Shown: piece by piece, positions 320 to 22,622 of the stretch
Layout of the letters: every line of letters starts with the position of its first letter
How positions within the stretch are numbered: the stretch's first letter is position 1
IMG/VR virus record: IMGVR_UViG_3300037726_000027
Location: 1-22,638 of that record
Source of the DNA: a virus
Reading direction: 5' to 3' (one strand)
DNA length: 22,638 nt
Program-made: the position numbers and the translations under genes
Notes under the pieces: model-generated
What the model was told of the DNA's origin: nothing
Databases searched by the model: none
What the model saw: the letters and a program-made list of their open reading frames with translations, nothing else

Positions 320-724
320 CTACTCCACCGCCTCTGCCGCCTGCTCTCGCACCGTCTGTGCCCATTCGATCAGGCTCCGCTCCTCATCCGTCGCAACCTC
401 TTTCCAGTAATCGAGCCGACACAAATCGTAGTCAATGAGTTCGTGCCGATATGGGCGGAGTTTTGGCGAGTTGCTCACTCGTTCACGGGCGAGACATTCG
501 TACGCCTCTATGTCACCATTCTCTAGATAGTCGGCCTTGCGCACCTTTGGATGACGGGCGCGCAATGCTTCTCGAAAACCCGGCTCGCTCAACATTGTCG
601 GGCCATCCTCTACCCATGCATCTCGCAGAGCGCGGCGCGTGAACTGCAAAACACGTCCAATCAAATCGCCATCCTGATCTATCATCCCTGAACCGTAACG
701 GTGTTCGATTGCGTAAAATGCCAT
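320..724 (-). CDS. Hypothetical protein, 134 aa
   Basis: Leftward gene starting at an ATG (722-724) with an ideal TAGGAGG five bases upstream. The product is soluble, mixed charge and Trp-rich at its ends (WVEDG, YWKEVATDEERSLIEWAQTV), with no membrane segment and no motif I can assign. Its leader, from the start codon to 764, is a 42-bp sequence repeated almost perfectly in front of the gene at 4676-4999, including a hairpin just before the Shine-Dalgarno. The two genes may therefore share post-transcriptional control although their proteins are not obviously alike. It is the last leftward gene and converges on the left-edge gene. Confidence 0.7.
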   Translation of the reverse strand: MAFYAIEHRYGSGMIDQDGDLIGRVLQFTRRALRDAWVEDGPTMLSEPGFREALRARHPKVRKADYLENGDIEAYECLARERVSNSPKLRPYRHELIDYDLCRLDYWKEVATDEERSLIEWAQTVREQAAEAVE

Positions 725-764
725 TTTATCCTCCTAGCCGGATACAATGCCTCCGGCGGGGCTG
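723..764 (-). repeat. 42-bp leader repeat, copy 1 (hairpin plus Shine-Dalgarno)
   Basis: This 42-bp segment recurs at 5019-5060 with one difference. Read leftward it contains GCCGGA-N9-TCCGGC, a six-pair hairpin, followed at once by TAGGAGG and the start region ATAAAAT. The single change between copies falls in the hairpin loop, which leaves the stem intact. In this copy the next base makes the start codon ATG. The conserved hairpin beside the ribosome site suggests a shared translational control element or mRNA leader. Confidence 0.75.
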
Positions 765-3280: not shown

Positions 3281-3293
3281 AGTCCCCTCCCGC
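3278..3293 (-). repeat. 16-bp ribosome-site repeat, copy 2
   Basis: Exact copy of 2987-3002. It includes the Shine-Dalgarno and ATG of the 91-aa gene and touches the end of the upstream parR-like gene. Confidence 0.6.
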
Positions 3294-3592
3294 TAGTATC
3301 GCATCCCCACATCGGTGGGAAAATCATCATCATCGTCGTGCTGTTCGGGCGCTGCCTGTGGCGCTGTATAACGTTGCGGAGCGCTCAGAATGCGCGTCAG
3401 TTCAGCCCGTGTGGCGTCGTCTAGCGGCTCTTTCAATGCGTGTGCCGCTTCTCTGCCAAGCCCCTGGATAGGTTGCCCAGCGTGATGCGCACCAATAACC
3501 ACGAGCGCCCGCAATCCGGCTGCAATATTCCCGCCGCCGATGCGGCGTAACAATGCGCGCATCTCTGGAGAGAGCCGGAATCCCGTTGTCAT
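3293..3592 (-). CDS. parR: ParR-like ribbon-helix-helix partition adaptor, 99 aa
   Basis: The start ATG at 3590-3592 overlaps the parM stop (ATGA); longer in-frame versions would run deep into parM. The N-terminus TTGFRLSPEMRALLRRIGGG followed by NIAAGLRALVVIGAHHAG has the ribbon-helix-helix pattern: a short beta strand, a helix, GG, then a second helix. The C-terminal half is Gln/Pro-rich and ends with an acidic run (DDDDDFPTDVGMRY) that could contact the ParM filament. In type II segregation loci a small RHH protein encoded directly after the actin binds the centromere and links it to filaments. Gene order and fold fit that role. The symbol rests on context, since ParR proteins share little sequence. 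Confidence 0.6.
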   Translation of the reverse strand: MTTGFRLSPEMRALLRRIGGGNIAAGLRALVVIGAHHAGQPIQGLGREAAHALKEPLDDATRAELTRILSAPQRYTAPQAAPEQHDDDDDFPTDVGMRY

Positions 3593-4545
3593 TGCGCCGC
3601 AATCCGGGCCGCGAGCCGCGCATACCCGCGAGCGACCGCCATCTGAGGCTCTGGCACGATGACCGCGTGACTGTACCTCGCCTGGATTGCAGCCGTGAGT
3701 TGCGGCAGTTCTGCGCCGCCGCCACCAATAACAATGGCGTCGTACTTCTTTCCGTTGCCCCATCGCTCTGTGAGGTACGCGACAATAGTATCGGCGTGCC
3801 TGTAGAGCGGCGCATCCCATCCAGACGGGAGTTTCACAAACTGGCCTGCAATCGTGACGCCGCCAGTTCGTATTGCCTGATCGGTCTGATAGAGCGTTAG
3901 CTCGCGGCCTAACACACTCGACAGAAACGAGCGGATGAACTTCAACGGTTGCGCTGTGCCAAGTTCGCGGGCGTCCATGCCCGTGCTCACGGGGCGCATC
4001 TTCTGCACTTCGGACACGTCCAGCGTGAGGTGCCCGATATCGACAACGGCGACGCTGCCCTTGAGTGCTGTATCGCCCGTCATTTTGCCGTGATTATCCA
4101 GGAGTAGGCTATACAGCAACCCAACCGGCTCGGCAATGACCGTGATATCGCCCTCCCATAGCGTACTCGCCTCGCGCAATCGCGCTGCCAGCGCCCGACC
4201 GTGCTCCTCATTCTCTGCCTGGTGCGCTGGTAGGCCCGTCACCAGGGTGCCCGCATCGCTTATTCCCGCCGTCGCGTGCTTGACCATTGCAGGGATAAGC
4301 ACAGGATGCGTCAGACGTGCCTCAGAAAGGTCTGTGAGTGGGTGTGCGGCCATTTCGGCGTCTAACCCTACCCAATACTCAGATCCGTTAATCGTGACGG
4401 TTGTAGCCCGTTCCAGGGCGCCTGCAACCGCACGGGACGCGGGCGCGATCATCGATGGAAACGAGATATTGACGATCTCCTTTCCACCACTCAGGCCGAT
4501 CAGTTTGGTGTACCCATAGCCGCCATTGTATCCATACGCGTGCAT
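3589..4545 (-). CDS. parM: ParM-like actin ATPase for DNA segregation, 318 aa
   Basis: Actin/Hsp70-fold ATPase expected to polymerise and push DNA copies apart. The phosphate-1 loop is NGGYGYTKL (residues 7-15), where Asp is usual at the position of Asn7. Phosphate-2 is VAVVDIGHLTLDV with Asp169, and the adenosine loop is IVIGGGGAEL (274-277 are Gly). The end PQMAVARGYARLA is typical of plasmid and archaeal ParM/Ta0583-type proteins. Length fits the family. It is the first gene of a leftward unit with its own promoter, followed directly by a ParR-like RHH gene. A structural rather than segregation role is possible, since some phages use actins to position DNA, but the RHH partner favours partition. 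Confidence 0.85.
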   Translation of the reverse strand: MHAYGYNGGYGYTKLIGLSGGKEIVNISFPSMIAPASRAVAGALERATTVTINGSEYWVGLDAEMAAHPLTDLSEARLTHPVLIPAMVKHATAGISDAGTLVTGLPAHQAENEEHGRALAARLREASTLWEGDITVIAEPVGLLYSLLLDNHGKMTGDTALKGSVAVVDIGHLTLDVSEVQKMRPVSTGMDARELGTAQPLKFIRSFLSSVLGRELTLYQTDQAIRTGGVTIAGQFVKLPSGWDAPLYRHADTIVAYLTERWGNGKKYDAIVIGGGGAELPQLTAAIQARYSHAVIVPEPQMAVARGYARLAARIAAQ

Positions 4546-4580
4546 ACCCTCTCCTCGTGTCAGTTCGTATCGCTGCTGCT

Positions 4581-4621
4581 ACTATAGCATATGTGCAACG
4601 AACGTGCAACACGTGTAGCAC
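4581..4621 (-). promoter_or_regulatory. parM promoter with palindromic operator or centromere-like site
   Basis: Read leftward: TTGCAC (4609-4604), a 17-base spacer, TATAGT (4586-4581), with TG before the -10. A second TTGCAC sits at 4598-4593, so GTTGCAC is repeated with 11-bp spacing, about one helical turn. The -35 is part of an 18-bp near-palindrome, GTGCTACACGTGTTGCAC (4621-4604), with core ACACGTGT. Repeats and a palindrome at the promoter of a parM-parR unit are what a ParR binding site (parC and autorepression) would look like. Confidence 0.65.
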
Positions 4622-4628
4622 AATCCAG

Positions 4629-4655
4629 ACAAAACGAAACCCCGCCGAAGCGGGG
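4629..4655 (-). terminator. Rho-independent terminator of the XRE-to-dnaN leftward block
   Basis: Read leftward, CCCCGC-TTCG-GCGGGG (4655-4640) has a stable UUCG-type tetraloop and is followed by TTTCGTTTTG. It sits 20 bases after the stop of the gene at 4676 and just upstream of the parM promoter, separating the two leftward units. Confidence 0.85.
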
Positions 4656-4675
4656 CTGCGAGAATGATGCCTCTC

Positions 4676-5018: not shown

Positions 5019-5060
5019 ATTTTATCCTCCTAGCCGGATACGATGCCTCCGGCGGGGCTG
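5019..5060 (-). repeat. 42-bp leader repeat, copy 2 (start codon changed to ATT)
   Basis: Matches 723-764 at 41 of 42 positions. It has the same GCCGGA/TCCGGC hairpin and the same TAGGAGGATAAAAT, but the base after the repeat is T, not G, so the expected start codon reads ATT. The only internal change is in the hairpin loop. Confidence 0.75.
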
Positions 5061-5322: not shown

Positions 5323-6432
5323 CTACCGCATGGACATCGGCATAATGACGTGTGTGTAGCGATCATCCCCGACAGGACGCAGCATGAGCGGGGCGTGCGG
5401 CCCTATCAACTCTAATGCTACCTGCTGCGTCTCTATCGCCTCTAGCACATCAGCGAGAAATCGCACATTGACGGCAATCTCGTTGTCGGCGCCTTCAATC
5501 ATTGCGGCAATGGTGCCCTGGTTATCGCCAACGTCGGCGGCATTGGCGCTGAGTGTTAGTCCTTCTTTCTCCTGCACCTGAACCTTCAGAATACCCTGGC
5601 TGGCGAGCGCAAAGTGAGACGCGAGCTTGACGGCTTTCGCCAGTTCGCGTGTGTCCACAAGGCAGCGCGTGGCGTGCTCTTCGGGGATGATTTTCTCGAA
5701 GCCTGGGAACTGGCCGTCAATCAGACGCGAGACAAGCGTGGTTGCGCCTGTCTCAAAAACGACCTGATTGTCGCTAGCTGCCATCGTGACGGCACCTTCT
5801 GCATCCCCGATGATGCTAGCCAGTTCGCGCATTGCGCGGGCAGGGATGATCAGATCTGGACGGGGCTGCATACTCTCTGTGCCCAATACGTATTTAGCCA
5901 GGCGAAACCCGTCTGCTGCCGCCAGTTTGACACCTTCCGGGCCAATGCCAACATAGACGCCCGTGAGCACTGGGCGGCTCTCGTCTGTGGCGGCAGCGAA
6001 TGCGGTGCACTCTATCGCGTCGCGCAATGCGAGTGCCGGAAATGAAATACCTTCCTTGGTTATGGTAGGAATGCGCGTAAACTCATCAGCGTCTAGCCCG
6101 GCAATGTTGTTTACGAAACGCCCGCATTCCAGGCGCAGGGACGTGCCATGCATCCGGAGCGTTACCGGCTCATTCGGCAAACCACCGACAACATCCGCCA
6201 GCAGGCGAGCGGGAACGCTGATACTGCCGTACGTCTCGACATTCGCCGAAACGCGGGTGGTGATGCTCATTTCCAGGTTTGTGGCGGCCAGTGCAAGCCT
6301 GTTGGATTCCACTGTCATGAGAATGTGAGTGAGACTAGGGATAGATGATTTACCCGCCACAGCGGGGCGCACAGTGGCTATAGCGCGCCTTAGTTCGGGT
6401 TGCGGTATGGTAACTTGGAGTTCGTTCGTCAT
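5323..6432 (-). CDS. dnaN: DNA polymerase III beta subunit (sliding clamp), 369 aa
   Basis: The protein forms a ring-shaped dimer around DNA and tethers polymerase and other partners. It starts MTNELQVTIPQPELRRAIAT with GAGGATGTA before the ATG at 6430-6432. The first domain shows VAGKSSIPSLTHILMTVESN and LALAATNLEMSITTRV. The last domain ends RPVGDDRYTHVIMPMSMR, the canonical clamp C-terminus. The length is that of a full bacterial clamp with three domains. The start overlaps the dcd stop as TAATG, so the two are translationally coupled. Phage-borne full-length clamps are uncommon. No replicative polymerase is visible in this window, so it may serve the host polymerase or a polymerase encoded elsewhere. 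Alternative in-frame starts lie inside dcd and are rejected. Confidence 0.95.
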   Translation of the reverse strand: MTNELQVTIPQPELRRAIATVRPAVAGKSSIPSLTHILMTVESNRLALAATNLEMSITTRVSANVETYGSISVPARLLADVVGGLPNEPVTLRMHGTSLRLECGRFVNNIAGLDADEFTRIPTITKEGISFPALALRDAIECTAFAAATDESRPVLTGVYVGIGPEGVKLAAADGFRLAKYVLGTESMQPRPDLIIPARAMRELASIIGDAEGAVTMAASDNQVVFETGATTLVSRLIDGQFPGFEKIIPEEHATRCLVDTRELAKAVKLASHFALASQGILKVQVQEKEGLTLSANAADVGDNQGTIAAMIEGADNEIAVNVRFLADVLEAIETQQVALELIGPHAPLMLRPVGDDRYTHVIMPMSMR

Positions 6433-7034
6433 TACATCCTCGCTTCTGTTACGTCGGTTTGCCCCTGGTACTTGCCCTTCTTGTCGGCATACGACACCTC
6501 GCACGTCGCATCGGCTTTCCAGAACTGCACCTGTGCGATGCCCTCCCCAATGTAAATAACCGACGCCATCGGCGCCGTGTTACTGATCTCAATCGTGACA
6601 TGGCCTTCCCATTCGGGTTCGAGCGGTGTCACGTTGACGATGGTGCCATTGCGGGCATACGTACTCTTTCCCAACACCGTGCATGTCACGTTGCGCGGGA
6701 TACGGAACCGCTCTACAGAGCGCCCCAAGACAAACGAATACGGCGGCATAACCAGGCAGACGGGCAGCCGATCTGCCTGGAAAACATACGGATCTATGGC
6801 GTATGGCACGTCCTGATTATGCGTCTGCACGTCAATCCATTGTGCTAATTCGGGCCGTTTCGGGTCGAGCGCCATACCTCGCTGGGGATAGCGAAAGACG
6901 GCGTCAATCCGCATATCGTAGCCATAGGACGTAAGCCCATACGAAACAGCCGGAGCGCCAACCGCCTCGCTGTACGGCGCTATCATGCCGCCGTGAGCGA
7001 GCGCCCGAATTTGATGGTCTGCGAGTGGTGTCAT
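6432..7034 (-). CDS. dcd: dCTP deaminase, 200 aa
   Basis: Converts dCTP to dUTP (or to dUMP in bifunctional members) in thymidylate nucleotide supply. Diagnostic stretches are LTSYGYDMRI near residue 38, GKSTYARNGTIVNVTPLEPE from residue 122, EWEGHVTIEISN with the probable catalytic Glu149, and GEGIAQVQFW. The GKSTYAR...PLEPEWEGHV form is the Gram-positive/archaeal-like branch rather than the E. coli branch. The start at 7032-7034 has GGAGAGGAGAGT upstream; the longer in-frame start has no better site. The TAATG junction couples it to dnaN, placing nucleotide supply and clamp in one translational unit. Whether it also has dUTPase activity cannot be read from sequence alone. Confidence 0.93.
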   Translation of the reverse strand: MTPLADHQIRALAHGGMIAPYSEAVGAPAVSYGLTSYGYDMRIDAVFRYPQRGMALDPKRPELAQWIDVQTHNQDVPYAIDPYVFQADRLPVCLVMPPYSFVLGRSVERFRIPRNVTCTVLGKSTYARNGTIVNVTPLEPEWEGHVTIEISNTAPMASVIYIGEGIAQVQFWKADATCEVSYADKKGKYQGQTDVTEARM

Positions 7035-8770: not shown

Positions 8771-9538
8771 CTATACAAAACACATCCCCATACCGCACTG
8801 CCGGTTCTCTCCTTTATCGGGTGTGTCGATGTCGGCTTCTGCCAGCGGCACGCGGTCACGGTGCAACCACAAGCGGTCGTCGTCAAGCGTATCCAATGGC
8901 GCGGCGTCTCTCAATTCTTCGTCTAGTTTGATCGCCGCTGCCCAGTCTTCTGGGTAGTTGTCGCGGATGTGGCGCCACTCGCTATTCCTCCGATGCGGAC
9001 ACATCCAGCACGCCGACTTCGGCGGCTCTGGCAAGCCTTCTGCCTGGATAATGTTTAGACAATCCTGTCGGGTCAGGTTGAGTTCGAGCAAGGGATAGCG
9101 GATGCTAATCCACTTCTCACTATCCTGGAGCGTGGCGCGGCGTCGCTCATCCAGGCTGAACCCAATCCACTTGACAGCCTGCTGCACGCCTTGCGCTCGT
9201 AGCCAGCGATTAACCGGTCGCTTTTTCCACTCCACACTGCAATACGTCCGCAGTTGCCCCGTGCTTGTGTGCATCGGCATAAGCACATCACCCTGGTGGC
9301 TGTACAGGTCAACGGTGCTCAGGTCGTGCGGCGCGATGTCCACGTGTAGCCCGTAGCGCTCCAAGAACGGTTGCATCACCTCTGTGAGATAGTCCCATGT
9401 TGACGCAGCCTCGCGCCCGGTGTCGGCGCAGACGATGTAGTCGGGCCGCTCCAGGACGCCGCGTGCTACCAGAACACACATAGCGACGGATTGCACGCCG
9501 CCGCCATAACTCAGGACGTTCGTTCTATAGTCATTCAC
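8771..9538 (-). CDS. PP-loop ATPase of the PAPS reductase-like family, 255 aa
   Basis: The PP-loop SYGGGVQS (residues 10-17) marks an adenylating alpha-hydrolase fold. YIVCADTGREAASTWDYL follows and is typical of phage 'phosphoadenosine phosphosulfate reductase' proteins. Cysteines cluster as C100, CWMC (177-180) and CGMGMC (248-253), enough to hold an iron-sulfur cluster or zinc, as in thiolating PP-loop enzymes. True PAPS reduction is unlikely in a phage lacking the pathway. Sulfur or nucleobase modification of DNA or tRNA is an alternative, unproven. The start is a GTG at 9536-9538 with TAGGAG about nine bases upstream, overlapping the preceding gene by eight bases. The nuclease gene follows immediately. 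Confidence 0.8.
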   Translation of the reverse strand: MNDYRTNVLSYGGGVQSVAMCVLVARGVLERPDYIVCADTGREAASTWDYLTEVMQPFLERYGLHVDIAPHDLSTVDLYSHQGDVLMPMHTSTGQLRTYCSVEWKKRPVNRWLRAQGVQQAVKWIGFSLDERRRATLQDSEKWISIRYPLLELNLTRQDCLNIIQAEGLPEPPKSACWMCPHRRNSEWRHIRDNYPEDWAAAIKLDEELRDAAPLDTLDDDRLWLHRDRVPLAEADIDTPDKGENRQCGMGMCFV

Positions 9539-10744: not shown

Positions 10745-11259
10745 GCTACCCAGTCCTTTCGCGCCCGCTCCGTGCATTCGCGGGCTTCCGCTGCCAGCGG
10801 GCCGGTTGCGCGCTCGTGTTCTGCCAGCGCGGCTATGAGCGCCTGCTCGAGCGTCGTGTATGGCGTGCATTCATCGGCAACAACGACGCGCCACTCCGGC
10901 GGTTCATCCTCGTTGCTGAAGAAATCCAGTTCGTGGTGCGCCACACGCCACGTTTTGAAAAACCAGTGGTCGCCGCGCCATTCGGGGCGGGTGCTGATCG
11001 GCGCGGCGCCGTAATCGCTCAGGTCGAACGAGACGATGATATCAAATACGTGTGTTGGCAGCGGGAACGGGATATCGTAATCAGCGCGGTCTGCCATCCC
11101 TTTTGGCAGTTTGTAAAGCCAGGACTCCAGGTCTGCCTGCGCGGCCTGGTGCAGGTCGCACTGGCGGGCGTGTTCTGCGTCGTGCTGTGCCTTCTCGGTA
11201 GCGCGCTGGTATGCCAGGGCCTGGCGGGCGGTGGTGATGGCGTCGTTTAGTGTGGTCAC
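10741..11259 (-). CDS. Hypothetical protein, 172 aa
   Basis: Start is a GTG at 11257-11259, which shares its first base with the TAG stop of the repressor-like gene (TAGTG), with GAGGAG upstream. The protein begins VTTLNDAITTARQALAYQRA, with a long helical start. The middle (HVFDIIVSFDLSDYGAAPIS and GDHWFFKTWRVAHHELDFFS) is rich in aromatic residues and looks beta-structured. It is the second gene of the leftward block and should be made together with the repressor-like protein. No family recognised. Overlap with both neighbours supports it being real. Confidence 0.65.
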   Translation of the reverse strand: MTTLNDAITTARQALAYQRATEKAQHDAEHARQCDLHQAAQADLESWLYKLPKGMADRADYDIPFPLPTHVFDIIVSFDLSDYGAAPISTRPEWRGDHWFFKTWRVAHHELDFFSNEDEPPEWRVVVADECTPYTTLEQALIAALAEHERATGPLAAEARECTERARKDWVA

Positions 11260-11498
11260 TATTCTGTCTCCTCTGTTACAATATGCTCCAATAGATTGCC
11301 GGGTTCGACGTTGTAATATGCGCATAGTTGCGCCATCAAATCGCGCCTTGGTATTCGGTATGGGTTTTGCTCTAAGTCCCATAATCGTTGGCGGTCTACA
11401 CCGATAGCGCGAGCCACGTCCGACACAGTTAGATCCTCACCTGCTTCTGCCGCCCGCCGTAAACGGGCTTCTTTCAACTTGTTCACAATTTTCCCCAT
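11259..11498 (-). CDS. XRE/Cro-C1-type helix-turn-helix regulator, 79 aa
   Basis: Short phage-repressor-like DNA-binding protein: LTVSDVARAIGVDRQRLWDL followed by EQNPYRIPRRDLMAQLCAYY forms the five-helix XRE domain, with VEPGNLLEHIVTEETE at the end. No peptidase or dimerisation domain is present, so it is more like Cro or a short repressor than a LexA-like CI. The start at 11496-11498 has GAGGAGGAGGG upstream; longer starts run into the promoter. It is the first gene of the leftward block and lies beside a symmetric pair of promoters with TGTCAAT operators, so it most likely represses one or both directions. Confidence 0.85.
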   Translation of the reverse strand: MGKIVNKLKEARLRRAAEAGEDLTVSDVARAIGVDRQRLWDLEQNPYRIPRRDLMAQLCAYYNVEPGNLLEHIVTEETE

Positions 11499-11529
11499 TG
11501 CCCTCCTCCTCTCTTGTCTGCACACGTCC

Positions 11530-11558
11530 ATTGTAAAGGAAAACCATAAGCTTGTCAA
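11530..11558 (-). promoter_or_regulatory. Leftward promoter
   Basis: Read leftward: TTGACA (11558-11553), a 17-base spacer, TACAAT (11535-11530). This is near consensus for sigma70. Its -35 box is one copy of the TGTCAAT operator half-site. It drives the XRE gene and the block down to dnaN. Confidence 0.85.
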
Positions 11559-14186: not shown

Positions 14187-14737
14187 CCACCGAATTGGTA
14201 CCGACCACAACCACCGAACTGGCCCGCCGTGAGGTAACGCCAGAGGCGTGGCATTTGATTACATCGATGGCTGAAACCGTCTATGAATGCCGTCTGGTAG
14301 CAGGCGTGAGCAAGCCAGAGCAGGCCGCGTTTGCGATGCTGAAGGCATACGAGCTTGGGTTTCCGCTTTCCTCGGTGGGCGATAACCTACAGGTCGTCAT
14401 GGGCAAGGTTGCGCTCACCTCGCAGGGAATGCTAGCGAAAATCCAAAGCCGCCCCGACATTGTGCGCCTCCAGATTGACAGCAGCACAGACGACGCCTGC
14501 ACCGTCACGATGATCAGGAGTACCGGGTTTCGTTTCACACTCACGTATAGCATGAAAGATGCCGAGCGGGCCGGTCTGGTCAAACCCGATAGCAACTGGA
14601 AAAAGTACCCGGCGAATATGTGCAGGTGGCGCGCTATCAGTATGTGCGCTCGCATTGTGGTGCCTGATCTGCTAGCCGGTTTGTACCTGGCGAGCGAGTT
14701 GAATGGGGATATTATAGACGCAGAGGTAGCGGAATGA
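14183..14737 (+). CDS. RecT-like single-strand annealing protein, 184 aa
   Basis: Starts with ATGA overlap and GCAGGAGG upstream. Core features are AFAMLKAYELGFPLSSVGDN, VVMGKVALTSQGMLAKIQSR, and FTLTYSMKDAERAGLVKPDS then KKYPANMCRWRAISMCARIV. These match the compact RecT-type recombinases of many phages, in which 'K.GW..YP..M..ARA' is the core. Such proteins anneal complementary single strands during recombination and replication restart. It sits between the HhH protein and a UvrD-like helicase, an expected order for a recombination-dependent replication module. It is shorter than classical RecT (about 270 aa) because the N-terminal extension is small. Confidence 0.7.
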   Translation: MTTELVPTTTTELARREVTPEAWHLITSMAETVYECRLVAGVSKPEQAAFAMLKAYELGFPLSSVGDNLQVVMGKVALTSQGMLAKIQSRPDIVRLQIDSSTDDACTVTMIRSTGFRFTLTYSMKDAERAGLVKPDSNWKKYPANMCRWRAISMCARIVVPDLLAGLYLASELNGDIIDAEVAE

Positions 14738-16527
14738 ATTTATTACAACAGGCGATGGGGATGGGCGTGATGCCCGAACCATCACAGACAAATGGGTTTG
14801 TACCATCGAAGTACCAGGCGTCCATTTTTGAATGGGCGCAACACGGCACCGGGAATGCATTGGTAGAGGCTGTAGCAGGAAGCGGCAAGAGTACCACACT
14901 GGCAAAGCTCACTGAGCGGTTGAACGGCTCTATCCTGTTTTGTGCCTTCAATAAGCATATCGCAGAGCCGATGCAGAAGAAACTGCAAAATGCGAACGTG
15001 AGCACGATCAATAGCATCGGCCACCGTACCGTAGTGCGCCATCTGGGCCGCGTGTCACTGGATGATCGGAAGTATCGCGCTATTGCGAAAGACCTGACTG
15101 CACCACTAGCGAATGATTATGATGAACGCCGCAAACTGTCAGGCGCGCTCTATGACCTGTGTCGATTTGTGCGTATCACATTAGCCAATCCAGAAGACCA
15201 GACGGCACTGGAATGCCTGATACGACATTATGGCATCGAAGATACAACAACCGAACTATTGCTACTGGTTAAGGTTGCTATCGAACGTGGAAATGATCTG
15301 GCATCAGAGCAAAAAGTAATTGACTTTGCCGATCAGTTATATTTGCCATACCGATGGGCACTGATACCAGATCAGTACGATTGGGTACTCATTGACGAAG
15401 CGCAAGACCTGAACGCAGCACAGCTTAACCTAGTGCTAAAATGCGTCAATCAGACCGGGCGCATTGTGGCAGTAGGGGACGACAGGCAGGCTATTTACGG
15501 CTTTGCGGGCGCGGATGCTGCCAGCTTCCAGAAGATCGCCACGGTAACCGATGCAACCCGGCTGCCGCTATCCATTTGTTATCGTTGCCCGTCTGAGCAT
15601 CTCGATCTGGCCCGTGAGATTGTACCAGAAATTGAAGCCTGTGACAATGCGCCCGATGGAGTTATTGAGCATATTGGCGAGCAAGATCTGCACCGATACC
15701 TCCAGCCGAATGATCTGGTGCTCTGTCGCCTTACAGCGCCGTTGATTGATGCGTGCCTGGAATTGATAGCGCGTGGCACGCCTGCCACTGTTCGCGGGCG
15801 CGATATCGGCAGGCAGTTAACAAAGATCGTTGATCAGGCCACTGATAACGGCGATAAGCCGTGGGAACGCTTTATCTGGCATCTTGACGCCTATCGTGCT
15901 GAGCAGGCCGCGAAGTTGGGTGATGACGATGAGAAACTGCAATCGCTCGAAGACCGGGTAAGTGCTGTGCGGCGCTGCTATCAGGAATGGCAGAGCACCA
16001 GCGCCGATACTTTTAAGGCGCGGCTTGAAAGTTTGTTCAACGACAAGAATAGTATTATTACGCTGTCTACCATCCATCGCGCCAAAGGGCTGGAAGCGGA
16101 GCGGGTATTTATCCTGCGCCCCGACAAACTACCATTACAACTCCGCAATCCGCAGCAGTGGCAAACCGAACAGGAATGGAACTTGCGCTATGTGGCACTC
16201 ACTCGCAGCAAGCACTATCTTTGTTTCGTACATCAGGAGAAGCCGCCAGAAGCTACACAGGAGCCGGTACAGGAGCAACAGGTTTCATGCACCACAGAAC
16301 CAGATGGTGACACGCCTCCGTGTCACTCAGATACACCACAATCGTTGTATGAGCAAGTCAACGACTTGGATTGTGAGTATAGCCGCATCAAGGTAGATCG
16401 CAAGTTAAAGCGCCGGGAACTTGCACAGATAGTGATAGATGCGGGCGGTGAACTGGAAGTCGAAGGTGCGCTCTTGAGGGCGTATGCGAAAGGCGACGAA
16501 TTAGTATTGCAAATCAGGACACGATGA
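14734..16527 (+). CDS. UvrD/Rep-like superfamily 1 helicase, 597 aa
   Basis: ATP-driven 3'-5' DNA helicase. Motif I is AGSGKST (Walker A, residues 48-54), motif Ia FCAFNKHIAEPMQKKL, motif II LIDEAQDL (DEAQ at 221-224), motif III VGDDRQAIYGFAGADAASF, motif V STIHRAKGLEAERVFIL, and motif VI NLRYVALTRSK. This is the short UvrD-like form often found in phages. After about residue 505 there is a Pro/Gln-rich linker and an extra helical and beta C-terminal piece (LKRRELAQIVIDAGGELEVE). The start overlaps the RecT-like stop, so the two are coupled. A role in unwinding during replication or recombination is expected. Confidence 0.92.
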   Translation: MNLLQQAMGMGVMPEPSQTNGFVPSKYQASIFEWAQHGTGNALVEAVAGSGKSTTLAKLTERLNGSILFCAFNKHIAEPMQKKLQNANVSTINSIGHRTVVRHLGRVSLDDRKYRAIAKDLTAPLANDYDERRKLSGALYDLCRFVRITLANPEDQTALECLIRHYGIEDTTTELLLLVKVAIERGNDLASEQKVIDFADQLYLPYRWALIPDQYDWVLIDEAQDLNAAQLNLVLKCVNQTGRIVAVGDDRQAIYGFAGADAASFQKIATVTDATRLPLSICYRCPSEHLDLAREIVPEIEACDNAPDGVIEHIGEQDLHRYLQPNDLVLCRLTAPLIDACLELIARGTPATVRGRDIGRQLTKIVDQATDNGDKPWERFIWHLDAYRAEQAAKLGDDDEKLQSLEDRVSAVRRCYQEWQSTSADTFKARLESLFNDKNSIITLSTIHRAKGLEAERVFILRPDKLPLQLRNPQQWQTEQEWNLRYVALTRSKHYLCFVHQEKPPEATQEPVQEQQVSCTTEPDGDTPPCHSDTPQSLYEQVNDLDCEYSRIKVDRKLKRRELAQIVIDAGGELEVEGALLRAYAKGDELVLQIRTR

Positions 16528-16528
16528 T

Positions 16529-18706
16529 ATGCACGACACAAAAACCGCTATCTTGCAGGCACTCGAACCATACCAGAATACACAGCACGGCGAAGGCCGC
16601 TACAACACACCGTGGCGGCCTGATGCTGATGGGGGCACGCTCGCCGTGTCGGAAAACGATGATGGCTTACTGGTCTGGTATGACCATAAAGACGAGGAAG
16701 GCGGCAGTCAGCGAGAGTTAGCTGAACGCCTGAATATCCAGACACCCAACGACACGCACCCATCGGGCAACATCTGGGAGCGCGCCGGGATTAGTCAGGG
16801 CGCCACATACGCACCGAAACCGGCGTACACCTCGCTCGAAGACTACGCCACAAAGCACGGTGTGAGTAAGCAAGTTTTTAGCCGCGCCGGATGGAAAGAA
16901 ACCCGGCGGCGCGGCCATAAGGCACTGGTTATTGCGACACAGACGGGCATCCGATATCGATATCTGGATGAAGAGAAAGCCGGGCTGAAATACGATCACG
17001 ACAAGGGCTGGAAACCGTGCTGGTACGGACTTGGCGTGGCGATCAGTATGCAACTCGACTGCCTGATCATCTGCAATGGTGAGGCGTCTACCGTGGTGGC
17101 ACACCATTACGGTGTGCCCGCCATTTGTGTGCCAGGTGGTGAGAAAAAGATACCACAGCACCTTATAGAAGAGCTACAGGATCGCTGGCGGGGTCGGGTA
17201 TATGTAGCACTCGACAGCGACGATAAAGGCCGCAGGATTGCACCCCAAATCGCTGAGCAGGTGAAGGGCACAGCGATTGACCTGGGTAATGATTTCGGTT
17301 ATGACCTTGCCGACTTCTGCCGCGACAACCCCGAAGAGACGTTGCAGGCACTCGAAAGATGTGCTCGTGCAGGCACGGTGTATACCCCATCATGGATGCA
17401 AGAGGGTATTACTCTGTTTGCACTGCGTCGCAAAGAGTTTGACGAGTTGCAGTGGATTGTGCCGGGCCTGTTGCCGGAAGGCTGCTGCCTGATGGCTGGG
17501 AAACCGAAGACCAAAAAGAGTTGGCTGGCGCTTGGTCTATCGCTGGCTGTGGCAATGCAGCAGCGGAAGGCGTTTGATAATCTGGACACACGATCCGGCG
17601 AAGTACTCTACCTCGATCTGGAGAGCAATCAACGCCGCATGAAGAGCCGCGTCGGGGCAATGCTTGGGGATGCCCTTGAATGGCCTGATAACTTCCATCT
17701 TTTTACACAATGGGAACGCGGCGAGGCGGGCATTCAGATGCTTGAGGAATGGATGCAACATCATCCGAAAACCGCGCTCATTGTTGTGGACATCCTCCAG
17801 AACATCAGGGCACCACGAGACAAGAACGCCAATCCCTACGATGATGATTATAATGCCGTCAAGCCATTGAACGAGTTTGCAGAGCGCCACCGCATTACGA
17901 TCATTGCTATCCATCACACCCGCAAGGCGAAAGCCGATGATGTGTTCGATGAGATCAGCGGTTCTACCGGTCTGACGGGCGGCGTCGCAACGATGTGGAT
18001 TATCGGACGCGTGCCTGGCTCTGATGACATGGTGCTGCATATCCGAGGGCGCGACGTGGACGATGAGGAACTGGCGCTCTCCTGGGATGATTATGCAACC
18101 GAACATCGTATCGAAGGCGACGCAGCTGCATATGCCATTACGAGCGAGCGCCAGCGCGTTTTAGAGGCAATGCAGGAAGGCGTACAGTACACACCCAAAG
18201 ACATCGCCGCCGAACTCGAAACCACCGTCAATGCCGTCCAGAAGCAACTGCGTCACCTTGCCGACAACTTGCTTGTTCGCAAAGTGGGTTATGGTAAATA
18301 TGAGAAAATTTGCAGGCAGAGTAGGCAGAGTGGGCAGAGTGGGAATAGTAGGCAGAGTAGGCACTCTGCCTATGGAGCCTCAACTCTGCCTAACTCTGCC
18401 TGGGGGGGTGGCAGAGTTGGCGACGCATCAGAAAGCGATAAAACGGCATTTTTTGGCAACTCTGCCTACTCTGCCTGCTATTCTATAGGCGAAAAATCGC
18501 AAAAAGAATACATCGGGGATGTACTCAGTGCACACGAAAGCGGCACACTCCGCATCACAATCAACAATGGGCAGTACTGGTTAACGGATGATCAAAGCCA
18601 TGTCATTTGGCCCGAACCATTTGCAAGTCGGGCGGATGCGAGTAATCAGGTTGCACAATGGCTGCATGAGAGCAGCAGCGGGTATCAATCTCTGGAGGGC
18701 TATTAG
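16529..18706 (+). CDS. TOPRIM primase-like plus RepA-type AAA ATPase (replication protein), 725 aa
   Basis: The N-terminal half has a TOPRIM domain: Glu185 in CNGEASTVVAHHYGVP and the DxD of VALDSDDKGRR (Asp229, Asp231), as in DnaG/phage primases. The C-terminal half is a RepA/RecA-type ATPase: Walker A GKPKTKKS (324-331), Walker B ALIVVDILQN (Asp421), and IAIHHTRKA then a GSTGL loop. The Walker A has Lys where Gly usually precedes the last Lys. A winged helix follows (YTPKDIAAELETTVNAVQKQ), then a low-complexity Ser/Gln/Arg/Gly linker encoded by iteron DNA (18315-18475), then a short C-terminal domain. It likely primes or initiates phage replication. The ribosome site is weak and distant. 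Confidence 0.88.
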   Translation: MHDTKTAILQALEPYQNTQHGEGRYNTPWRPDADGGTLAVSENDDGLLVWYDHKDEEGGSQRELAERLNIQTPNDTHPSGNIWERAGISQGATYAPKPAYTSLEDYATKHGVSKQVFSRAGWKETRRRGHKALVIATQTGIRYRYLDEEKAGLKYDHDKGWKPCWYGLGVAISMQLDCLIICNGEASTVVAHHYGVPAICVPGGEKKIPQHLIEELQDRWRGRVYVALDSDDKGRRIAPQIAEQVKGTAIDLGNDFGYDLADFCRDNPEETLQALERCARAGTVYTPSWMQEGITLFALRRKEFDELQWIVPGLLPEGCCLMAGKPKTKKSWLALGLSLAVAMQQRKAFDNLDTRSGEVLYLDLESNQRRMKSRVGAMLGDALEWPDNFHLFTQWERGEAGIQMLEEWMQHHPKTALIVVDILQNIRAPRDKNANPYDDDYNAVKPLNEFAERHRITIIAIHHTRKAKADDVFDEISGSTGLTGGVATMWIIGRVPGSDDMVLHIRGRDVDDEELALSWDDYATEHRIEGDAAAYAITSERQRVLEAMQEGVQYTPKDIAAELETTVNAVQKQLRHLADNLLVRKVGYGKYEKICRQSRQSGQSGNSRQSRHSAYGASTLPNSAWGGGRVGDASESDKTAFFGNSAYSACYSIGEKSQKEYIGDVLSAHESGTLRITINNGQYWLTDDQSHVIWPEPFASRADASNQVAQWLHESSSGYQSLEGY
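18315..18475. repeat. Iteron cluster, candidate replication origin inside the replication gene
   Basis: Octamer GGCAGAGT occurs exactly at 18315, 18324, 18333, 18351 and 18410. Its inverse ACTCTGCC occurs exactly at 18363, 18383, 18393, 18459 and 18468. A degenerate copy sits at 18342, keeping a strict 9-bp period through the first block. Inverted pairs build a stem-loop with 10 pairs at 18349-18372 and another at 18392-18418. A low-GC run (AAAGCGATAAAACGGCATTTTTTGG, split over 18432-18456) lies between blocks and another follows after 18481. Origin iterons inside the initiator gene are known from lambda O. Confidence 0.75.
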
Positions 18707-21544: not shown

Positions 21545-21894
21545 TGCATGGCTCGCCGCGTATTACTCTGGAACGCTTCACAGCCATCCTGGAGATGGCA
21601 CAATCGCCGCTCGCGCCCGACGCCAGCGAGGCATACAAGATCCTCGTGAACTACGGCATTGATCCGGCATGGGCACTCGCCTATTGGAACAGCCTGAACG
21701 AGTATGGCACACGCGGCAACGCCAGAACAACGCGCAATATTGGCCACGTCCCAATGGAGCACGGCGACGGGCATGGGTATTCCTACTATGCGGGTCTTGT
21801 TTCCTATTACAAATGGATTGACGGCGTCCTGGAATGGGCGCAATGGTGGCGCCGTATCGAAAAAGCAGCGGAACAGATGGGGGAAGTAGAGTGA
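21544..21894 (+). CDS. Glucosaminidase/transglycosylase-like protein, 116 aa
   Basis: ATG at 21544 overlaps the holin-like stop (TGATG); a start seven codons earlier is possible (21523). The protein carries ITLERFTAILEMAQSPLAPD, then AYKILVNYGIDPAWALAYWN, SLNEYGTRGNARTTRNIGHV, which has the layout of small lytic glucosaminidase-like domains: a helix, 'YGIDPA', then '..YGT.G.A..T.N.GN'. The usual catalytic Glu in 'HES.FGT' is not visible at its place, so activity is uncertain. It lies before the amidase with GTGA overlap, so the two probably act together on peptidoglycan during lysis. Confidence 0.6.
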   Translation: MHGSPRITLERFTAILEMAQSPLAPDASEAYKILVNYGIDPAWALAYWNSLNEYGTRGNARTTRNIGHVPMEHGDGHGYSYYAGLVSYYKWIDGVLEWAQWWRRIEKAAEQMGEVE

Positions 21895-22622
21895 CATACC
21901 TCATTCATCGCGTGGAAATGACGCAGCCGCACTACTACATCGGCGGCAACTCCCGCCGTATGGTCGTGATGCACGCTACCGCCGGAAGCCATCCCAGCGA
22001 TTATGAGTGGCTGCGGCACGGCGGCGATCCTGCCGCGCCCGTCTCTACGCACTACTACATCTCTCCAGATGGGAGGATCACGCAGTTCGTGCACGACATA
22101 GATCGCGCATGGCACGCTGGCGCCTCCTCCTGGATTGTAGACGGCGTGCAGATGAGCAACCTCAACGACCATAGCATCGGAATTGAACTCTCGCACCCCA
22201 ACACCTCGACGCCGTACGATGTGCGTCAGCTTGACGCTGCTGTGTGGCTCGTGCGTCAACTCGTCAGCGAGTACAACATCCCACAATCCCAACTCGTACG
22301 CCATAGCCAGATTGCCCCCGGCCGCAAGAGCGACCCGCAGGGGCTCGACTGGGATGCATTCGTCAGTGCTGTCTATGGGTTGCCGCCTGAGCGACGTGCA
22401 CCGCATTGGTACGTCGTGCCTGATGGTATCACAGCCTATGTGCGGTACGCGCCTGAGGTGCCAGAGCCGTCGTCCGCGAACGTTGCGCAGATCCTCATGC
22501 CCGGCAGCAGCTTGCATATCGCAGAGTGGTGCGACTGGACTGATGAGGCATACGGTGGGCAGTGGGGCCGTCTGTCAGGGAGTACGAACTACATCCATAG
22601 CAGCGGAGTGGTAGCGGAGTGA
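21891..22622 (+). CDS. N-acetylmuramoyl-L-alanine amidase (Amidase_2) endolysin, 243 aa
   Basis: Zinc amidase cleaving the bond between MurNAc and L-Ala in peptidoglycan. Zinc ligands are probably His28 (VVMHATAGSHPSD), His138 and Asp148 (LVRHSQIAPGRKSDPQGLDW), with Lys146 nearby. Other fold signatures are STHYYISPDGRITQFVHDID, RAWHAG and HSIGIELSHP. A C-terminal part (about 175-243) resembles an SH3-like wall-binding domain: WYVVPDGITAYVRYAPEVPE, then AEWCDWTDEAYGGQWGRLSG. The start is a GTG at 21891 overlapping the previous stop (GTGA) with GGGGGAAG upstream. No signal peptide, so it needs a holin, which fits the holin-like gene two positions before it. Confidence 0.92.
   Translation: MTYLIHRVEMTQPHYYIGGNSRRMVVMHATAGSHPSDYEWLRHGGDPAAPVSTHYYISPDGRITQFVHDIDRAWHAGASSWIVDGVQMSNLNDHSIGIELSHPNTSTPYDVRQLDAAVWLVRQLVSEYNIPQSQLVRHSQIAPGRKSDPQGLDWDAFVSAVYGLPPERRAPHWYVVPDGITAYVRYAPEVPEPSSANVAQILMPGSSLHIAEWCDWTDEAYGGQWGRLSGSTNYIHSSGVVAE

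Follow-up and report, generated by a model that had tools for sequence, protein, structure and literature searches.

The ParM-ParR gene pair and its upstream boxes

The window analyzed in this study, a viral record of 22,638 bp and a linear fragment, carries on its minus strand a gene for a ParM-type actin-like ATPase of 318 aa (3589-4545), followed by a gene for a ParR-like adaptor of 99 aa (3293-3592) and preceded by three short boxes. The product of the larger gene matched the Pfam families ALP_N (9e-10) and MreB-like_C (9e-9) as well as the partition protein family PHROG_691 (7e-34). A single-sequence search of PDB sequences with the window ParM reached the ParM of pSK41 at 1e-3, and a profile built from the window ParM and its phage relatives reached those of pCBH, pSK41 and R1 at 1e-31 to 2e-7. 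The protein carries GYNGGYGYTK as phosphate loop 1 (with Asn7), DIGHLTLD as phosphate loop 2, following the DxGxxTxD pattern, and IGGGGAE as the adenosine motif with its GGG. The family and profile matches, together with the tree described below, place it in the ParM/Alp group of actin-like ATPases, in agreement with the original prediction, and reading the two genes as a toxin-antitoxin pair is untenable given this homology. An AlphaFold model of the window ParM from a four-sequence alignment had a pLDDT of 46 and was set aside. One candidate relative (L010) was dropped, as the string IGGGNIAA had matched by chance inside another protein.

The parM stop codon and the start of the 99-aa open reading frame overlap in ATGA at 3589-3592; this coupling and the acidic tail of the 99-aa protein could be read from the sequence as originally described. 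The position and coupling of a small adaptor directly downstream of parM are as in type II systems. Among Chloroflexota genomes and other viral contigs, the ATGA-coupled partner likewise occurs as a pair with ParM.

No Pfam, PHROG or NCBIfam family matched the 99-aa protein. Its AlphaFold model (pLDDT 65) contains helices at residues 9-19, 23-37, 46-54 and 59-70, then a disordered acidic tail, and the first two helices after a short extended N-terminus give a ribbon-helix-helix (RHH)-like pattern; nevertheless, Foldseek and VIA-align searches with this model returned no RHH or ParR match. In a profile-profile comparison, ten ParRs of the window's clade aligned in register with RHH-type ParRs at a score of 22.6 (P 3e-4), whereas the best of 100 column-shuffled decoys scored 12.0 (0/100 as good) and the reversed control 10.2. 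The predicted RHH assignment was thus supported by the profile match and had no counterpart in the structure search, and we consider the RHH fold likely solely on the strength of the profile match and the arrangement of helices. The missing family and structure matches would also suit an unrelated autoregulator, with ParM using some other adaptor. This explanation appears very unlikely, since homologues of the 99-aa protein lie directly downstream of Chloroflexota parM genes and are immediate neighbors in nearly all relatives and share a recurring C-terminal motif, and the protein aligns with the RHH ParRs and, as shown below, is swapped along with its ParM and box array. The motif in question is D-P-F-x-x-V/L-G-I/F-D/E-V at the very end of the relatives of the window ParR; we propose that it contacts ParM, which would make the C-terminal tail DDDDDFPTDVGMRY (3293-3337, minus strand) a candidate ParM-binding peptide.

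Upstream of parM, on the same strand, lie box 1 (GTGCTAC, inverted GTAGCAC, 4615-4621), box 2 (GTTGCAC, 4604-4610) and box 3 (GTTGCAC, 4593-4599), each 11 bp from the next. Read toward parM, the boxes are separated by ACGT and GTTC and followed by TATAGT and the start codon. Phased repeats in this position are typical of type II systems, and the array is a candidate centromere/operator. With inversion allowed, 0/1000 dinucleotide shuffles reached the score of three boxes at the exact 11-bp phase. Boxes 1 and 2 form the 18-bp near-palindrome GTGCTACACGTGTTGCAC at 4604-4621, and in the relative G002 (L003) the palindrome at this site is perfect. Both the two GTTGCAC repeats and the near-palindrome of the original prediction were therefore found, and the third box, which is the other arm of the palindrome, was added to them. 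The proposed promoter with its -35 under the palindrome fared less well: a consensus sigma-70 scan found 0 promoters, and only by eye can TTGCAC within box 2, which could hold a -35, be read with a spacing of 17 bp to TATAGT at 4581-4586.

Just upstream of the cassette lies an intrinsic terminator hairpin (4638-4657, minus strand), which is also present in sister phages that carry another cassette. All three phages with the window's type of cassette keep the operator region, while their sequences diverge on the far side of the terminator, upstream of it.

A Chloroflexota clade of ParM with Asn in phosphate loop 1

A first scan of genome contigs with ParM gave nothing, and the clade to which the window ParM belongs was found later in a sample of 301 Chloroflexota genomes, 14 of which contained ParM matches at E<=1e-6. 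In the tree, the window ParM is nested within a group of Chloroflexota sequences (14 rows, with support of 95/91), and every member of the group has phosphate loop 1 in the form G-x-N-x-G-[HYF]-G. The canonical Asp is thus replaced by Asn in the window, in its relatives G001 and G002 and throughout the Chloroflexota clade, and two sister sequences (L114/L116) have Ile at this position, whereas distant plasmid and phage ParMs have Asp. The Asn in place of Asp that had been pointed out from the window is accordingly real, and it is clade-wide and no local oddity. Its presence is a departure in the active site and has no bearing on what defines a ParMRC system. A literature search for phosphate-loop-1 Asp mutants yielded nothing usable.

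Five further viral records carry a clade ParM with the Asn motif, and a tyrosine integrase was found in 4/5 of them; an integrase also lies near parMR in two chromosomal or large-contig neighborhoods. The genes downstream of the clade ParMs mostly show the ParR layout. A repeat search upstream of Asn-clade relatives (L120, L121 and L125-L129, the last five being records G311-G315) found no phased boxes, so the box test does not score everywhere. These box-less relatives are mostly in integrase-bearing elements, unlike the integrase-free phage group of the window. Their lack of boxes, and the number of only three boxes in the window, were counted against a partition function.

Exchange of the cassette among related phages

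The related set comprises seven phage contigs. The cassette of the window (type 1) is present in three, namely the window and the IMG/VR contigs G001 (47,348 bp) and G002 (20,760 bp), with a ParM identity of 92-93%; the other four carry a different pair (type 2). One of these, G004 (46,499 bp), was reached by searching with the neighboring dnaN and has in the same slot a different actin (ALP_N 3e-14), with 24% identity to the window ParM and the canonical Asp in phosphate loop 1. Its partner of 67 aa overlaps the actin gene, ends in a DDDDD-type tail and comes near Pfam Plasmid_stab_B, with an E value of 4e-5 that falls just short of the cut-off. The type-2 pair occurs at 95% identity in three further contigs, and both types are found in contigs named for metagenomes 3300037796 and 3300037504.

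The borders of the exchange are sharp on both sides. Upstream, the homology between the window and G004 ends at window position 4619, just past the shared terminator and GGATTGTG; downstream, the homology of L033 to the window restarts at 3290, right after the ParR stop codon. The exchange unit (3293-4619, minus strand), running from ~4619 to ~3290 in the window, is therefore almost confined to boxes, parM and parR, and it was replaced en bloc in four related phages. After the stop codon of its type-2 parR, G004 reads GGAAACGATACTAG, which resembles the final codons of a type-1 parR (in G002: ...GGAAAACGATACTAG), and then shared DNA follows. As this is a scar of type-1 parR, type 1 was replaced there. 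The type-2 operator has three boxes of its own, GTTATAA-n4-CTTATAA-n4-GTTATAA, also at an 11-bp phase, for which 0/1000 shuffles in L035 and 4-5/1000 in L020 reached the score. That the swapped cassette independently shows this box geometry in a different sequence was counted in favor of a partition function. Taken together, homology, gene pairing, boxes and exchange give good support to the originally predicted ParM-ParR-type unit with its own operator.

The integrase-associated relatives described above raise the question of whether the window holds the remnant of a partition operon that came from a Chloroflexota element, integrating or conjugative, with selection lost in this phage. Clade ParMs do have tyrosine integrases as neighbors, both in Chloroflexota chromosomes and in 4/5 other viral records, and G001 has a broken second copy, in which a ParM C-terminus is fused to a neighboring gene. 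However, both genes are intact in the three type-1 phages along with the operator region, and the fact that a second complete cassette took the place of the first suggests that the function is still needed; this origin is therefore the least probable of the explanations considered, and we give it hardly any weight.

The broken copy in G001 (L002:9952-10625) is the remnant of a third ParM allele, consisting of the last ~45 residues at 57% identity, which run in frame into the beginning of a neighboring membrane-protein-like gene, a mosaic junction. An intact second ParR-like gene (38% identity) follows it. The replication module also differs between the collinear relatives (window 14734-18706, plus strand, versus L011:12204-14570): the window has a UvrD-like helicase and a primase/helicase, and G001 a polymerase/primase protein. 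A dispersed direct repeat of 42 bp, 97.6% identical between its copies at window 723-764 and 5019-5060, has similar copies in the related contig L035 (1778-1822) and may represent a common promoter or a site of recombination.

Phage context, proposed function and comparison with known systems

The near-full-length relative G001 contains terminase, portal, head and tape-measure genes, and the window itself has a lysis gene, an amidase at 21834-22622, in line with the predicted lysis module. From the repressor switch that was also predicted, one XRE-type HTH gene (11259-11534, minus strand) is present. The cassette lies near genes for dCTP deaminase and for the DNA polymerase III sliding clamp (dnaN, 5323-6432, minus strand). 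The host is probably a member of the Chloroflexota because the cellular matches of this dnaN, in a pattern-limited scan, are overwhelmingly from that phylum, at about 40-44% identity. A phosphoadenosine-phosphosulfate-reductase-like gene (8771-9538, minus strand; PHROG_424, 3e-38), which has small genes of unknown function next to it, may have a role in sulfur metabolism or in modifying DNA.

Tyrosine recombinase and resolvase domains (PF00589 and PF00239) were not found in any of the seven contigs, which are fragments or near-complete, and PF07508 was not found in the four contigs tested, as would be expected of a phage-plasmid. The two ends of G004 adjoin inside G001 (5971-6209 and 6244-6852); therefore, the map is either circular or permuted in a circular manner, although such permutation could equally result from headful packaging by itself. 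Among the genes identified there was no replication initiator of the plasmid type.

Based on this evidence, we infer, with a probability of about 0.72, that the cassette is a type II (actin-based) partition module of a tailed phage, segregating a circular phage genome. ParR dimers would bind the three phased boxes upstream of parM, which would serve as a centromere and probably also as an autoregulatory operator; the C-terminal tails of ParR would grip a ParM filament at its end, and as the filament grew and turned over it would drive the sister circular genomes away from each other. Such a module would most likely serve to pass on stably a plasmid-like prophage that does not integrate, and maintenance as a phage-plasmid or episome is likely, in keeping with the failure to find an integrase and with the circular or permuted map.

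The main rival to episomal maintenance is the positioning of DNA during lytic growth, in which ParM-ParR would position or transport phage DNA in productive replication, like AlpC-AlpA or the tubulin PhuZ, with no segregation of a resident episome. SPO1 is a virulent phage, and in phages of its group a small gene overlaps one for a ParM-like protein; therefore, a ParM gene alone is no proof of plasmid life. The same has been said of partition genes in general (PMC8026635), AlpC/AlpA serves phage replication (PMC4446434), and the dnaN and dCTP deaminase genes near the cassette would suit a replicative role. Conversely, the cassette has its own terminator and repeat array, the related contigs without integrases and the XRE-type regulator fit a resident state, and the whole-cassette exchange would be better explained by incompatibility of resident replicons. 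We consider lytic positioning unlikely on balance, while taking it more seriously than any other rival. Because of the SPO1 pair and the replicative role of AlpC-AlpA, the episomal reading is favored and not established.

Under episomal maintenance, a swap of site, motor and adaptor as one cassette would give the phage a new partition specificity, and related phage-plasmids could share a cell without incompatibility. That cassette exchange may alter incompatibility is suggested by Clostridium plasmids, for which ParR-parC specificity was shown to lead to incompatibility (PMC9426499). Phage-borne ParMR is already known, and the Asn clade and the cassette exchange are variants beyond the routine. 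It is conceivable, and we suggest it only tentatively, that one branch of ParM in the Chloroflexota functions with Asn or Ile where Asp is otherwise near-universal, that its ATP turnover and the dynamics of its filaments are altered, and that its phage-plasmids switch incompatibility group by exchanging the cassette at fixed borders, which would let related phages co-reside. Whole-cassette replacement between collinear phages offers a clean setting to test ParR-parC-driven incompatibility of phage-plasmids, and the clade-wide loss of Asp, in an actin ATPase that seems to work, would make a basic question of actin-fold catalysis testable in natural proteins. The findings also suggest a maintenance mechanism for Chloroflexota phages, on which a literature search returned nothing on point.

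Compared with known systems, the window resembles the ParMRC plasmids R1, pB171, pSK41 and pCBH in its actin motor, small downstream adaptor and phased upstream repeats, and the 11-bp phase of its boxes is common to R1, whose ParR needs two 11-bp repeats (PMC9426499). It differs in having three short boxes only, against ten iterons in R1, in a ParR unrecognized by Pfam and in the Asn of phosphate loop 1. The Bacillus phage-plasmids IEBH and vB_BtS_B83, which were likened by description, are also tailed phages with ParM and a small adaptor, and some Bacillus phages with ParM and an RHH protein are thought to be plasmid prophages (PMC8026635, PMC6669507); vB_BtS_B83 has Xer recombinases, whereas none were detected in the phage group of the window. 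Comparable pairs of ParM and partner occur in Bacillus, Brevibacillus and Alicyclobacillus phages: SPO1 (gp27.9-gp27.8), vB_BboS-125, Jenst and KKP_3916 combine, as the window does, a phage actin with a neighboring small gene, which in these phages has an RHH-like appearance, although with 20-26% identity and Asp in phosphate loop 1. The AlpC-AlpA-alpS system of the Corynebacterium prophage CGP3 shares a prophage actin, a DNA-binding adaptor and promoter repeats, but its alpAC operon is preceded by 24 repeats, its prophage integrates and its role is in replication. Finally, the type-2 cassette of G004 and its relatives differs from the window in its distant ParM with canonical Asp, its ParR near Plasmid_stab_B and its box sequence, and agrees with it in slot, layout, three boxes at the 11-bp phase and DDDDD tail.
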